Shown here one piece after another: positions 24,889-27,743 of a stretch of 45,328 nucleotides of DNA (position 1 is the first letter of the stretch; every line of letters starts with the position of its first letter). The DNA lies in NCBI RefSeq assembly GCF_030532915.1, contig NZ_JAUNKD010000022.1, positions 1 through 45,328 of the forward strand, written 5' to 3'. The stretch is from Capnocytophaga sp. GTDB taxonomy: Bacteria; Bacteroidota; Bacteroidia; Flavobacteriales; Flavobacteriaceae. Under the pieces are notes generated by a model. The model was given only the letters and a program-made list of their open reading frames with translations. It was not told the origin of the DNA and did not search any database. A program made the translations under genes and the position numbers.

Positions 24889-25137
24889 GTGGCTAAGAAT
24901 ATTTCAATAGTGCTTGAAGATTATTTCAGTGCGTATGTCAATGCACAGATAGAGTCGGGAAAATTCGCTTCGGCAAGTGAAGTCGTGCGGGCTGCCTTGC
25001 AATTATTTGAGTATGAAGAAGCCAAAAAAAACGCACTTGTTGCTGAACTCAAAAAGGGAGAGGCATCGGGCTTTGTGGCGGACTTTAATCGGGAAACGTT
25101 TTTGAAAGAGCTTCACAATAAACATATTACAAAGTAA
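24889..25137 (+). CDS. ParD-type antitoxin
   Basis: 82 residues starting with GTG at 24889; no in-frame ATG gives the expected N terminus, which reads MAKNISIVLEDYFSAYVNAQIESG. This ribbon-helix-helix start, followed by KFASASEVVRAALQLFE, is characteristic of ParD/CopG antitoxins. The acidic and basic helical tail would cover the toxin. Its stop codon overlaps the toxin start by one base (TAATG), a typical translationally coupled toxin-antitoxin arrangement. It begins 39 bases after ffh. Confidence 0.9.
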   Translation: MAKNISIVLEDYFSAYVNAQIESGKFASASEVVRAALQLFEYEEAKKNALVAELKKGEASGFVADFNRETFLKELHNKHITK

Positions 25138-25439
25138 TGGATTACAAAATAAGCCGAGAAGCTCAAAACGATATGGAGCACATTTGGCTTTATACGCTCA
25201 AAACTTGGTCTGCCAAGCAAGCCGACCTTTATTATAATTTGCTAATTGATGCCATCGAGGATTTGGCACAAAATCCCTCGCAGGGAATTGATTACAATCG
25301 TGTTCGTGAAGGATATTATAAGGCTAAAATGAAATCGCATTTTATCTTTTACAGAATAAAAGAAGATGAAAATTGCATTGAAATTATCCGAATTCTTCAT
25401 CAACGTATGGATATTGACACACATTTGCGTAGCGAATAG
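25137..25439 (+). CDS. ParE family toxin
   Basis: 100 residues of the RelE/ParE superfamily. MDYKISREAQNDMEHIWLYTLKTW and the C-terminal HFIFYRIKEDENCIEIIRILHQRMDI are classic ParE features. ParE toxins inhibit DNA gyrase. The gene is intact and coupled to its parD-type antitoxin by a 1-base overlap. The last codons sit in a palindromic stretch (ATTTGCGTAGCGAAT, 25424-25438) that falls at nearly the right spacing to be the first, degenerate unit of the array immediately downstream. Confidence 0.92.
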   Translation: MDYKISREAQNDMEHIWLYTLKTWSAKQADLYYNLLIDAIEDLAQNPSQGIDYNRVREGYYKAKMKSHFIFYRIKEDENCIEIIRILHQRMDIDTHLRSE

Positions 25440-25936
25440 CCCAAAAAGGAATAAAATTGCGTCGTTCACCAAAACGAATTTGCTCAAAACACCCCAATTT
25501 AGTTCATTCGTCGAGGCGAATTTGACAAAAATGCAGATTTTTAACCAATTCGTGCCGACGAATTTCATAAACAGGCTAAATTTTGATGCGTTCGTCGCGA
25601 CGAATTACTCAAAATAACAAAAAAACAAGCAATTCGTTAAGGCGAATTTGACAAATAAAACATAGGGAGCCAATTCGTCGAGACGAATTCGGCAGGGAGA
25701 AAAAATAGAGCAAATTCGTCTCGACGAATTTTGTAAAATAAAAATGAACAGGCAATTCGTGTTAATGAATTGGATAATCTCATAAAGGTTTACATAATTC
25801 GTACTGATTTTTTAGTAAATTTTTCTGTTTAGGGGATTATTCGTCCTGTTTATTCTTGTAATTCGGATAAAATATTTGGTTTTATTCCTGCCGAAATTGA
25901 AAATTCGTCCGAAAAGGAACTTTATAAGGAACAAAA
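25440..25936. other. 497-base gap after parE
   Basis: The gap is nearly filled by the palindrome array. The remaining 25856-25936 holds half-site remnants (AATTCGG at 25860, AATTCGTC at 25902) and the leader of the DUF2750-like gene. An open frame through the array (about 25366-25617) encodes a 14-residue periodic peptide with FVxTN motifs, but it begins inside parE in another frame and is probably a by-product of the 42-base repeat. Confidence 0.6.
25463..25855 (+). repeat. Array of 18-bp palindromes at 41-42-bp spacing
   Basis: Ten units start at 25463, 25505, 25547, 25589, 25631, 25672, 25713, 25754, 25796 and 25838, so spacing is 42 or 41 throughout. The consensus is AATTCGTC-NN-GACGAATT. 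Units at 25672 and 25713 are perfect and are exact reverse complements of each other; units 1, 9 and 10 are degenerate. The 23-24-base linkers share little. In units 2-8 five pairings are G-U on the plus strand and none is A-C, which hints at plus-strand RNA hairpins. Weaker half-units continue at about 21-base steps to 25910. No known element is recognised, and no cas genes are present. Confidence 0.85.
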
Positions 25937-26401
25937 ATGCTAATAGACTCAAAAATAATAGAAGAGCGATACGAACGCTTTGTGGAAAAAGTGGTTGAAA
26001 CAGGCGTTGTTTACACATTGAAAGACAAAAAAGGCGTTGCCGTTTGTCCGTCAAATCACTTTTTTTACGACGAAGCGGAAGAAGAGGCGTGTCCGACACT
26101 GCTTTTTTGGAGCGAGGAGAAGCGTGCCCAACTTTGCCAAGCGGAAGAATGGGCAAAGCATCGTGTTGAGCAAATTCCGTTGGCTGAATTTATGGAACTT
26201 TGGTGCTTAGGGATGTATGATGACGGCGTAGTGGTCGGGCTTGATTTTGACCATAATTTATTTGGTTATGAACAACTTCCGATTGATTTAGTAACAGATT
26301 TAATTCGCCAAGCAGAAGCTGCCAAAACCCGATTTTCGTTCAGAAATTTTAAATCGCTTGCTGACTTAAAAACCTATTTGGAAGAAATTGAAGAGGAATA
26401 G
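25937..26401 (+). CDS. DUF2750-like protein, copy 1
   Basis: 154-residue acidic, probably cytosolic protein without signal or membrane segments. The pattern ERFVEKVVETGVVYTLKDKKGVAVCPS ... LLFWSEEKRAQLC ... IPLAEFMELWCLGMYDDGVVVGLDF resembles DUF2750, a small family of unknown function. It is a clear paralogue of the gene at 27321 (shared VAVCPSN, FWS, EFWCLGMYEDGV and the C-terminal FKNF.SL..LK.YLE). The tandem copies flank the DUF6934-like cassette, suggesting that the two paralogues were once adjacent. The function cannot be stated. Confidence 0.7.
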   Translation: MLIDSKIIEERYERFVEKVVETGVVYTLKDKKGVAVCPSNHFFYDEAEEEACPTLLFWSEEKRAQLCQAEEWAKHRVEQIPLAEFMELWCLGMYDDGVVVGLDFDHNLFGYEQLPIDLVTDLIRQAEAAKTRFSFRNFKSLADLKTYLEEIEEE

Positions 26402-26474: not shown

Positions 26475-26578
26475 AGAAAAATGCACACATTTATTCATAA
26501 AATACTAGCAACCCAAAAGGTTTTTTACCTGAAAAACAAAAAGGAGGTGGCGGTTTGCCCGTCTAACACTTTTTTTAT
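26475..26578 (+). repeat. Direct repeat, left copy, around the cassette
   Basis: 104 bp, identical to 27315-27418 except for two G/A differences (26546 and 26561), at a constant offset of 840 bases. It covers the start codon and first 32 codons of the second DUF2750-like gene. Confidence 0.95.
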
Positions 26579-26582
26579 ATAA
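26481..26582 (+). pseudogene. Truncated 5' fragment of the second DUF2750-like gene
   Basis: 33 codons (MHTFIHKILATQK...VAVCPSNTFFI) identical in protein sequence to the start of the gene at 27321, then a TAA immediately after the repeat ends. It looks like the left half of a gene split by insertion of the cassette, whose 5' end has been duplicated on the right. Confidence 0.9.
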
Positions 26583-27314: not shown

Positions 27315-27418
27315 AGAAAAATGCACACATTTATTCATAAAATACTAGCAACCCAAAAGGTTTTTTACCTGAAAAACAAAAAGGAAGTGGCGGTTTGCCC
27401 ATCTAACACTTTTTTTAT
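27315..27418 (+). repeat. Direct repeat, right copy, around the cassette
   Basis: Partner of 26475-26578. Recombination between the copies would remove exactly 840 bases, including both cassette genes, and leave one intact DUF2750-like gene. Confidence 0.95.
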
Positions 27419-27743
27419 TGAAGAAACGGGACAGCCCATTTCGGTTTTTCCGTTTTGGTCTGACAAAAAGACCGCCGAAAGCTGTATGAAAGAGGAGTGG
27501 CAACACTATGCAGTGGACGAAATCACGCTGACGGACTTTATGGAGTTCTGGTGCCTCGGAATGTATGAAGACGGCGTGGCGGCGGGTATTGATTTTGACG
27601 AAAATTTGTGCGGAGAAGAGCAAATCCCTACCGAGCTGTTGCTCAAAATTATTGACGAAGCCGAGAAATCAGACACCAAACTGATTTTTAAGAACTTCGT
27701 ATCGCTCAAACAGCTGAAAAATTATTTAGAAACGGACGAATAA
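27321..27743 (+). CDS. DUF2750-like protein, copy 2
   Basis: 140 residues, paralogous to the protein at 25937. The shared core is VAVCPSN, PFWSDKKTAESCMKEEW, ITLTDFMEFWCLGMYEDGVAAGIDFDENL and the C-terminal FKNFVSLKQLKNYLE. It lacks the first 17 or so residues of copy 1. Its first 98 bases lie in the right direct repeat, so its reading frame was restored after the cassette inserted, but its upstream region is now that of the cassette. Function unknown. folD follows 33 bases later. Confidence 0.72.
   Translation: MHTFIHKILATQKVFYLKNKKEVAVCPSNTFFIEETGQPISVFPFWSDKKTAESCMKEEWQHYAVDEITLTDFMEFWCLGMYEDGVAAGIDFDENLCGEEQIPTELLLKIIDEAEKSDTKLIFKNFVSLKQLKNYLETDE

Follow-up and report, generated by a model that had tools for sequence, protein, structure and literature searches.

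Phased palindromes downstream of parDE in a Capnocytophaga genome: one of three sister arrays among intergenic repeats that favour a 21/42-bp step

The array and its genes

The window, the whole stretch of 45,328 nucleotides of Capnocytophaga sp. DNA that was analysed, carries a row of short palindromes in the gap between a ParDE-type toxin-antitoxin gene pair and a DUF2750 gene. The array is non-coding DNA. It has two sister copies in the genome and belongs to a larger group of intergenic arrays that favour a step of 21 or 42 bp. The features of the locus are listed below.

24889..25137, + strand: ParD-type antitoxin gene, 5′ of the array (PF03693, E 1.6e-24)
25137..25439, + strand: ParE-type toxin gene, ending 23 bases before unit 1 (PF05016, E 1.7e-20)
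25463..25855, no strand assigned: array of ten 18-bp palindromes, consensus AATTCGTCNNGACGAATT, from pattern matching and alignment with two sister arrays
25505..25771, no strand assigned: core units 2-8, each with ≤3 mismatches to AATTCGTCNNGACGAATT; units 6 and 7 are perfect
25631..25753, no strand assigned: units 5-7, with three 41-bp steps; 41 bp is also found in both sister arrays
25731..25753, + strand: linker of unit 7, ttgtaaaataaaaatgaacaggc, more conserved than any other linker
25814..25837, + strand: linker of unit 9, its start agta.atttttct common to all three arrays
25937..26401, + strand: DUF2750 gene, 3′ of the array

The ten palindromes and the step series given in the initial annotation were confirmed by consensus matching and alignment. 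Units begin at 25463, 25505, 25547, 25589, 25631, 25672, 25713, 25754, 25796 and 25838, with steps of 42, 42, 42, 42, 41, 41, 41, 42 and 42 bp. At ≤3 mismatches, AATTCGTCNNGACGAATT has 7 matches in the window against 0.51 expected, and none of 100 shuffles gave 7. The outer units are weak by themselves, with units 1 (25463) and 9 (25796) agreeing with the consensus at 11 of 16 positions and unit 10 (25838) at 10 of 16. Units 1 and 9 are backed by the sister array near mdh (13/16 and 14/16), and unit 9 also by the one near ybeY (15/16). Unit 10 stays below 10/16 in the mdh array and reaches 13/16 in the ybeY array. Tandem Repeats Finder did not report the array when run on the window, and an ungapped repeat search recovered 7 of the units.

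In the relative with the most similar ffh (G009), the DUF2750 gene directly follows ffh, and neither parDE nor the array is present. The two Ffh proteins are 98% identical, and 96 of 176 fourfold sites differ between the genes. Among 20 ffh loci, each covering at most 1.5 kb past the gene, ParD and ParE matched the window's own locus only. Further downstream in the window, the second DUF2750 gene has its first 100 or so bases repeated in a near-identical copy, seen by eye (26480-26580 and 27321-27420) and located before a DUF6934 gene; the arrangement looks as if the DUF6934 gene had been inserted with partial duplication of the second DUF2750 gene.

Sister arrays

The AATTCGTCNNGACGAATT pattern occurs, at ≤3 mismatches, at 48 places in the 2.66-Mb genome, with clusters in the window and on contigs C64, C73 and C33 and scattered single copies. 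The C64 array (L011:4942-5358) lies downstream of mdh and before a gene for a 224-aa protein, and the C73 array (L012:4961-5377) lies between ybeY and bioB, these gene names coming from a reading of the proteins by eye rather than from a library search. The C33 cluster, a candidate fourth array, was set aside as not independent: 644 bp of it (L013:157-800) are 100% identical to C73 (L012), and it is probably a redundant contig end. A run of 100 N lies inside the C73 array, and this and the 644-bp identity indicate assembly trouble or masking.

All nine steps of the mdh array are identical to those of the window array, and the ybeY array has the window's steps from unit 2 on, the place of unit 1 being taken by a long hairpin. 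Both sister arrays are prolonged on the 5′ side by CTTTGnCAAAGTT...AACTTTGnCAAAG hairpins at steps of 84 or 126 bp. A multiple alignment of the three arrays has no gap across units 2-9. Over these units, the window array and the mdh copy are identical at 115 of 144 palindrome positions (80%) and 92 of 189 linker positions (49%), and the window array and the ybeY copy at 108/144 (75%) and 91/189 (48%). The two sisters are closer to one another, with 120/144 (83%) and 148/189 (78%). Inside a single array, the mean identity between palindromes is 76-82%.

The description of the linkers as hardly conserved holds within the window array, where linkers of different units are 39% identical, but not between arrays. 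There, linkers of the window and its sisters share 48-49% at equal unit number, against 26-42% at shifted registers (27-42% for window and mdh copy), and homology is therefore register-specific. For the linker of unit 7, identity is 19/23 in both window comparisons and 20/23 between the sisters. The initial annotation also suggested that selection acts on the palindrome and the phase. Equal steps combined with diverged linkers uphold a constraint on spacing, but between the two sisters the palindromes are barely better kept than the linkers. Inversions of the centre dinucleotide between sister units (AA/TT, GA/TC) were striking by eye but were discarded, a hand calculation having attributed much of the effect to base composition.

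Of the 189 linker positions, 97 differ between the window and the mdh copy (uncorrected), with no length change in the 8 units compared. In non-coding DNA of related-genome pairs, drawn from G009, G003, G008, G005 and G006, all of species other than that of the window, indels and substitutions numbered 8/60, 20/110 and 18/116, and a fourth pair gave 1/4 over 22 bases only. At the lowest ratio, 8/60, approximately 13 indels would be expected from 97 linker differences, and none is seen. A gapped aligner raises the identity, introducing 10 gap positions between window and mdh copy and 28 between window and ybeY copy. As the gapped window-mdh alignment is slightly better, compensating indels inside linkers are possible.

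Strand and folding

The proposal of a plus-strand RNA relied on imperfect pairs in units 2-8, of which five are G-U and none is A-C. This count is literally correct but depends on the choice of units, as adding unit 1 brings in three A-C pairs against one G-U pair. For units 1-9, the G-U/A-C counts are 7/3 in the window, 3/4 in the mdh copy and 5/8 in the ybeY copy (3/5 when unit 1 of the latter, a hairpin of another kind, is left out). Ten additional units on the 5′ side, many of them near-copies of one another, give 1/14 and lean to the minus strand. The total over the units counted is 16 G-U against 29 A-C, and there is no consistent strand bias. With A-C pairs equalling or exceeding G-U pairs in the sister arrays, and with both strands folding about equally well against shuffles (z of -5.0 and -4.6), the G-U argument was rejected. 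The plus-strand fold consists mostly of pairing between distant units and not of a row of hairpins. No terminator-like site was scored within the window array, and an Rfam scan returned no family at gathering score, the listed matches being far below it.

Spacing of repeats in non-coding DNA

Self-matches were examined in a 1.19-Mb sample of the genome that is not random, because its contigs were picked for carrying a palindrome or hairpin match and then largely fetched. Among 406 non-coding segments, the top self-match lags were 42, 168, 84, 126, 252, 294, 210, 21, 63 and 273, all of them multiples of 21. The best repeat modulus between 15 and 59, computed for 319 segments that are mostly whole contigs, was 42 (excess z 10.8), followed by 21 (8.1) and then 28 (1.9). 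The peak is one base sharp, with z of 13.0 at 42 compared with 3.6 at 41 and 2.2 at 43. Lags at odd multiples of 10.5 bp (31/32, 52/53, 73/74 and 94/95) carry no signal, and the rule is therefore one of 42 bp with 21 and 63 bp rather than one of single helical turns. At lags of 105, 147 and 189 bp the signal is weak (z 1.9, -0.3 and 1.4).

The preference was also seen gap by gap. Among 327 intergenic gaps of at least 150 bp in this sample, 53 were repeat-like (z ≥5.5). In 35 of the 53 the best lag was exactly divisible by 21, where approximately 2.6 such gaps were expected, and in 42 it lay within one base of a multiple; the window array, with a best lag of 41, counts among the 42 and not the 35. 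The nominal P for multiples of 21, which ignores shared descent, is 6e-33. Other divisors were rarer, with 18 in 6 gaps, 22 in 5, 24 in 3, 25 in 1, and 17, 19, 20 and 23 in none. Divergent gaps make up 3 of the 53 repeat-like gaps as against 75 of 327 overall, with orientation taken from a rough ORF call that mislabelled the window array itself as divergent.

A set of 44 segments was clustered. It consisted of the 42, with two neighbours merged, plus L069, L074 and the start of L134, three manual additions that likewise fall on multiples of 21. At a loose BLAST threshold they formed 12 groups, the largest of 33, or 16 groups, the largest of 24, when links through the dispersed hairpin and REP words were ignored. 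Eleven of the 44 have no link to any other segment, and 9 of these 11 are on exact multiples of 21, all 44 having been preselected as no more than 1 base away from a multiple of 21.

Coding DNA also has raised lags (12, 21, 33, 42 and 84), and coding lags of this kind probably reflect helix heptads. A coding origin of the 21-bp step was rejected, as no reading frame would survive the 41-bp steps of the window family. Intrinsic curvature was likewise rejected: A-tract power, assessed in ten arrays by a comparison that had no shuffled control, had its maximum at a period other than 10.5 bp in every one.

In scans for phased palindromes, a first small scan of the genome's own loci had no peak at 42, and a second found six groups at 42 and 0-8 at other periods, with no clear preference. 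Over 0.95 Mb the leading periods were 42 (10 groups), 41 (8) and 63 (7), with others at 0-5. Over 1.23 Mb, among 36 groups that include the redundant C33, they were 42 (7) and 21 and 63 (4 each), with others at 1-2.

Other repeats in the genome

Arrays built on different palindromes, AAGAATGCAnGCATTCTT and TTGATGTACCTCAA, have the same 42-bp step. L135 has 11 units, all of 42 bp, in which AAGAATGCAnGCATTCTT alternates with a long hairpin, and L125 has approximately 8 units of 42 bp with TTGATGTACCTCAA (by eye). The step is 126 bp in L074, which has three different palindromes (by eye), and 63 bp in L134. Many arrays lack clear palindromes and consist of degenerate direct repeats of 21 bp, and some hairpins are reduced to one arm (L070). 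Three large arrays, at L104:6018-6712, L105:5502-6384 and L108:13690-14249, mix palindromes of the GGGCGAATTGCAATTCGCCC and GGGCGTATTGCATACGCCC types.

The CTTTGnCAAAG hairpin, CTTTGnCAAAGTn(4-10)ACTTTGnCAAAG, has 95 copies in this genome compared with 0-33 in 19 other genomes of the genus. Loci carrying it are L069, L074, L070, L135, L134, L142 and L143 (contigs C22, C76, C17, C35, C51 and C32). Its copies are several times in tandem at 63, 84, 105, 126 or 147 bp, and other adjacent copies are 167, 250, 263, 330 or 417 bp apart. GTAG-tagged REP words number 43 in the 1.19 Mb, and such palindromes form phased arrays too. The genome has one RAYT-like Y1_Tnp gene, L132:3951-4478 (C24:37208-37441); among the 19 other genomes of the genus, only G016 has one.

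Relatives and other genomes

Out of 100 genomes, only that of the window has the exact palindrome-pair pattern; the 99 relatives without it include 19 members of the genus. The pattern had no place in viral contigs, and the mdh-side array had no match in a plasmid collection. In a BLAST search of this array against 20 genomes of the genus, the matches listed outside its own genome cover the hairpin part only. A pattern scan of genome contigs gave two places, both unrelated and discarded: one in an archaeal MAG (two units), the other a short tandem repeat in a Bacteroidales MAG.

No phased palindromes were found 3′ of mdh or bioB in ten relatives, within 1.3 kb downstream and at periods of 21, 41, 42 and 63, in regions where gene order also differs from that of the window genome. 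Two other arrays were compared with the orthologous gaps of G003, where the gaps are free of repeats and measure 56 bp against 519 bp and 136 bp against 338 bp; the comparison was limited to 12 pairs of gaps, of which two involve an array of the window genome. Since arrays are absent at the matching sites of the relatives checked, they are either lineage-specific gains or have been lost elsewhere.

Phased palindrome groups number 20 per Mb in the window genome, 30 in G018, 10 each in G012 and G017, and 5 in G015. Density in G018 exceeds that in the window genome, so density alone is not special and the self-match lag is what distinguishes the latter. Best periods of 41, 42, 42 and 83 were found for 4 of the 11 groups in the control genomes, and some of these resemble ordinary AT-rich or coding DNA. 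Lags in relatives were assessed on samples of 80 or 200 kb each. G017, another species of the genus, follows the rule clearly, with moduli 42 and 21 at 5.3 and 4.8 and the next at 1.2, and G015 has modulus 21. The rule is weak in G003, and in G004 the top lag is 21 (z 3.1) without a clear modulus. G018 and G012 are led by 11, 22 and 33, and G011 by 11 and 22 with 21 also raised; the lead of 11/22 bp in these samples (L152-L161, L172-L181 and L204-L207) possibly represents a different base step. Lag scans gave nothing clear in G002 and G014, and 26 segments from 100 kb of E. coli had no 21/42 signal. Individual arrays in relatives include a 41-bp direct tandem repeat of approximately 3.7 copies with one palindrome per unit in G015 (L085:5437-5590), and a long degenerate 21-bp array around CAATATTTTTGATTCCAAAAG in G017 (L191:18337-18936). 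A literature search on Capnocytophaga repeats, helical-turn tandem repeats, interspersed palindromes and sopC-like arrays found no such rule in titles or abstracts, subscription journals being mostly outside its reach.

Interpretation

Unit length is kept, palindromes are better conserved than linkers in both window comparisons, and no strand is consistently preferred, which fits an element acting at the level of DNA with dimers every four turns. The best reading of the array, adopted tentatively and at less than even confidence, is a phase-locked DNA scaffold for a putative dimeric protein. A dimeric DNA-binding protein is predicted to occupy each palindrome. Successive dimers would then be set on one face of the helix by the fixed step, 21 or 42 bp being two or four helical turns. 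Dimers on the same face could stack, bridge or wrap, much as at centromere-like sites or sites that organise the nucleoid. Arrays with other palindromes but an equal step, and the rarity of divergent gaps among the repeat-like ones, also speak for this reading. The case for helix face alone is weakened because odd multiples of 10.5 bp are empty, A-tracts lack a dominant 10.5-bp period and palindrome-free arrays exist. Also against the scaffold, arrays are missing at matching places in the relatives checked, palindromes are hardly above linkers between the two sisters (83% versus 78%), some hairpins are down to one arm, and phased palindromes are no commoner here than in G018.

A neutral or selfish intergenic satellite without cellular function is nearly as likely as the scaffold. 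Tandem duplication with a 21-bp base step would build higher-order repeats of 42, 63, 84, 126 and 168 bp, and hairpin-templated repair of arms would keep the palindromes. Lags at multiples of a base unit are what higher-order duplication predicts, and the apparent lineage specificity of the arrays, the expansion of the CTTTGnCAAAG hairpin relative to the other 19 genomes, the many plain degenerate direct repeats and the lack of signal at odd helical multiples all agree with it. Common descent may also explain part of the 21-bp agreement, with 33 of the 44 clustered segments, or 24 when hairpin and REP links are ignored, in one group. What a satellite does not explain is the missing indels, unit length having stayed constant though linkers are about half substituted, and we know of no mutational process with a 21-bp quantum. 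The unlinked segments on exact multiples of 21 (9 of 11) also count against it, but come from the set preselected near such multiples.

The remaining explanations are less probable. A transcribed RNA, in which hairpins lined up at the 3′ ends of mRNAs would block exonucleases or read-through, is unlikely; it is favoured by folds that beat shuffles on both strands, by the position of all three arrays downstream of a + strand gene and by long hairpins followed by T-runs in the 5′ part of two of the three. Yet G-U pairs are not in overall excess on the plus strand, the window array has no terminator-like site and no Rfam match at gathering score, its fold joins mostly distant units, and a row of hairpins would need no exact step of 41-42 bp. 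Mobilisation of REP-like elements by the genome's RAYT-type transposase is very unlikely. The single Y1_Tnp gene (C24:37208), rare in the genus, and the common GTAG-tagged words would suit it, but outside its stem the window palindrome is free of unpaired GTAG or CGTC tags, its CGTC being part of the paired stem, and none of the listed palindrome places is on C24, where only short chance words, and no window-type palindromes flanking the gene, were met near the transposase (L132). That the array is an operator of the adjoining ParDE module, as the 23-base distance from the end of parE to unit 1 could suggest, is hardly credible: it sits downstream of parDE and not at the promoter, and no parDE was recognised by eye in the ORF lists for the surroundings of the sister arrays. 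For the latter reason ParD, put forward in the initial annotation as a protein that might bind the array, is also an unlikely partner.

The phase-locked scaffold also has a wider form, which we regard as rather unlikely. Many arrays, some of them unrelated, would form a distributed and sequence-flexible scaffold in which selection against indels keeps the exact 21/42 phase, in at least one other species of the genus as well, and a putative chromosome-organising protein would read every two or four turns. Intergenic repeats of bacteria are usually viewed as REPs, terminators or loosely spaced mobile debris. If true, a 21/42-bp rule with length kept during sequence drift would be a structural constraint on non-coding DNA of a kind that methods based on sequence conservation may miss.

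Comparison with known systems

The initial annotation knew of no named element with this layout, which is not quite right. The F-plasmid centromere sopC reportedly comprises 12 units of 43 bp with one inverted repeat per unit, and the window array, with 10 units, resembles it in having tandem units of 40-45 bp that each carry a short inverted repeat. The two differ in setting, as sopC sits on a plasmid beside sopAB and is the binding site of SopB, whereas here there are three copies on genome contigs with variable linkers. No ParB/SopB was found in the eight window neighbours scanned, and SopA/SopB-type partition genes were not seen among the sister-array ORFs read by eye.

CRISPR arrays combine a palindromic repeat with spacers of uniform length, as does the window array. 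Here, however, the repeats vary (76-82% identity) where those of CRISPR are near-identical, the linkers are homologous between arrays (48-78% at equal unit number) where CRISPR spacers are unrelated, and no cas genes were found among the eight neighbouring window proteins scanned.

STAR elements of Staphylococcus aureus consist of a 14-bp direct-repeat motif, T(G/A/T)TGTTG(G/T)GGCCC(C/A), in tandem repeats of approximately 50 nt, often with near-identical spacers within a locus (PMC3532100). They share with the present arrays intergenic, GC-richer motifs in repeated units, locus-specific spacers and uneven expansion between species (PMC3532100), but the part of that source used here describes no fixed helical step for them. 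At ≤3 mismatches, the STAR motif has 8 places in the window against 25 expected, none of them in the array.

REP palindromes of the GTAG and CGTC families have an unpaired tag at one end of a stem-loop (PMC3733652). The likeness lies in short intergenic palindromes that are often 3′ of genes and clustered, in a genome with a RAYT-like gene (PMC3733652). The window palindrome differs from the REPs described there in being without an unpaired tag and CCA-like tail, and in recurring once per 41-42 bp in a fixed phase.
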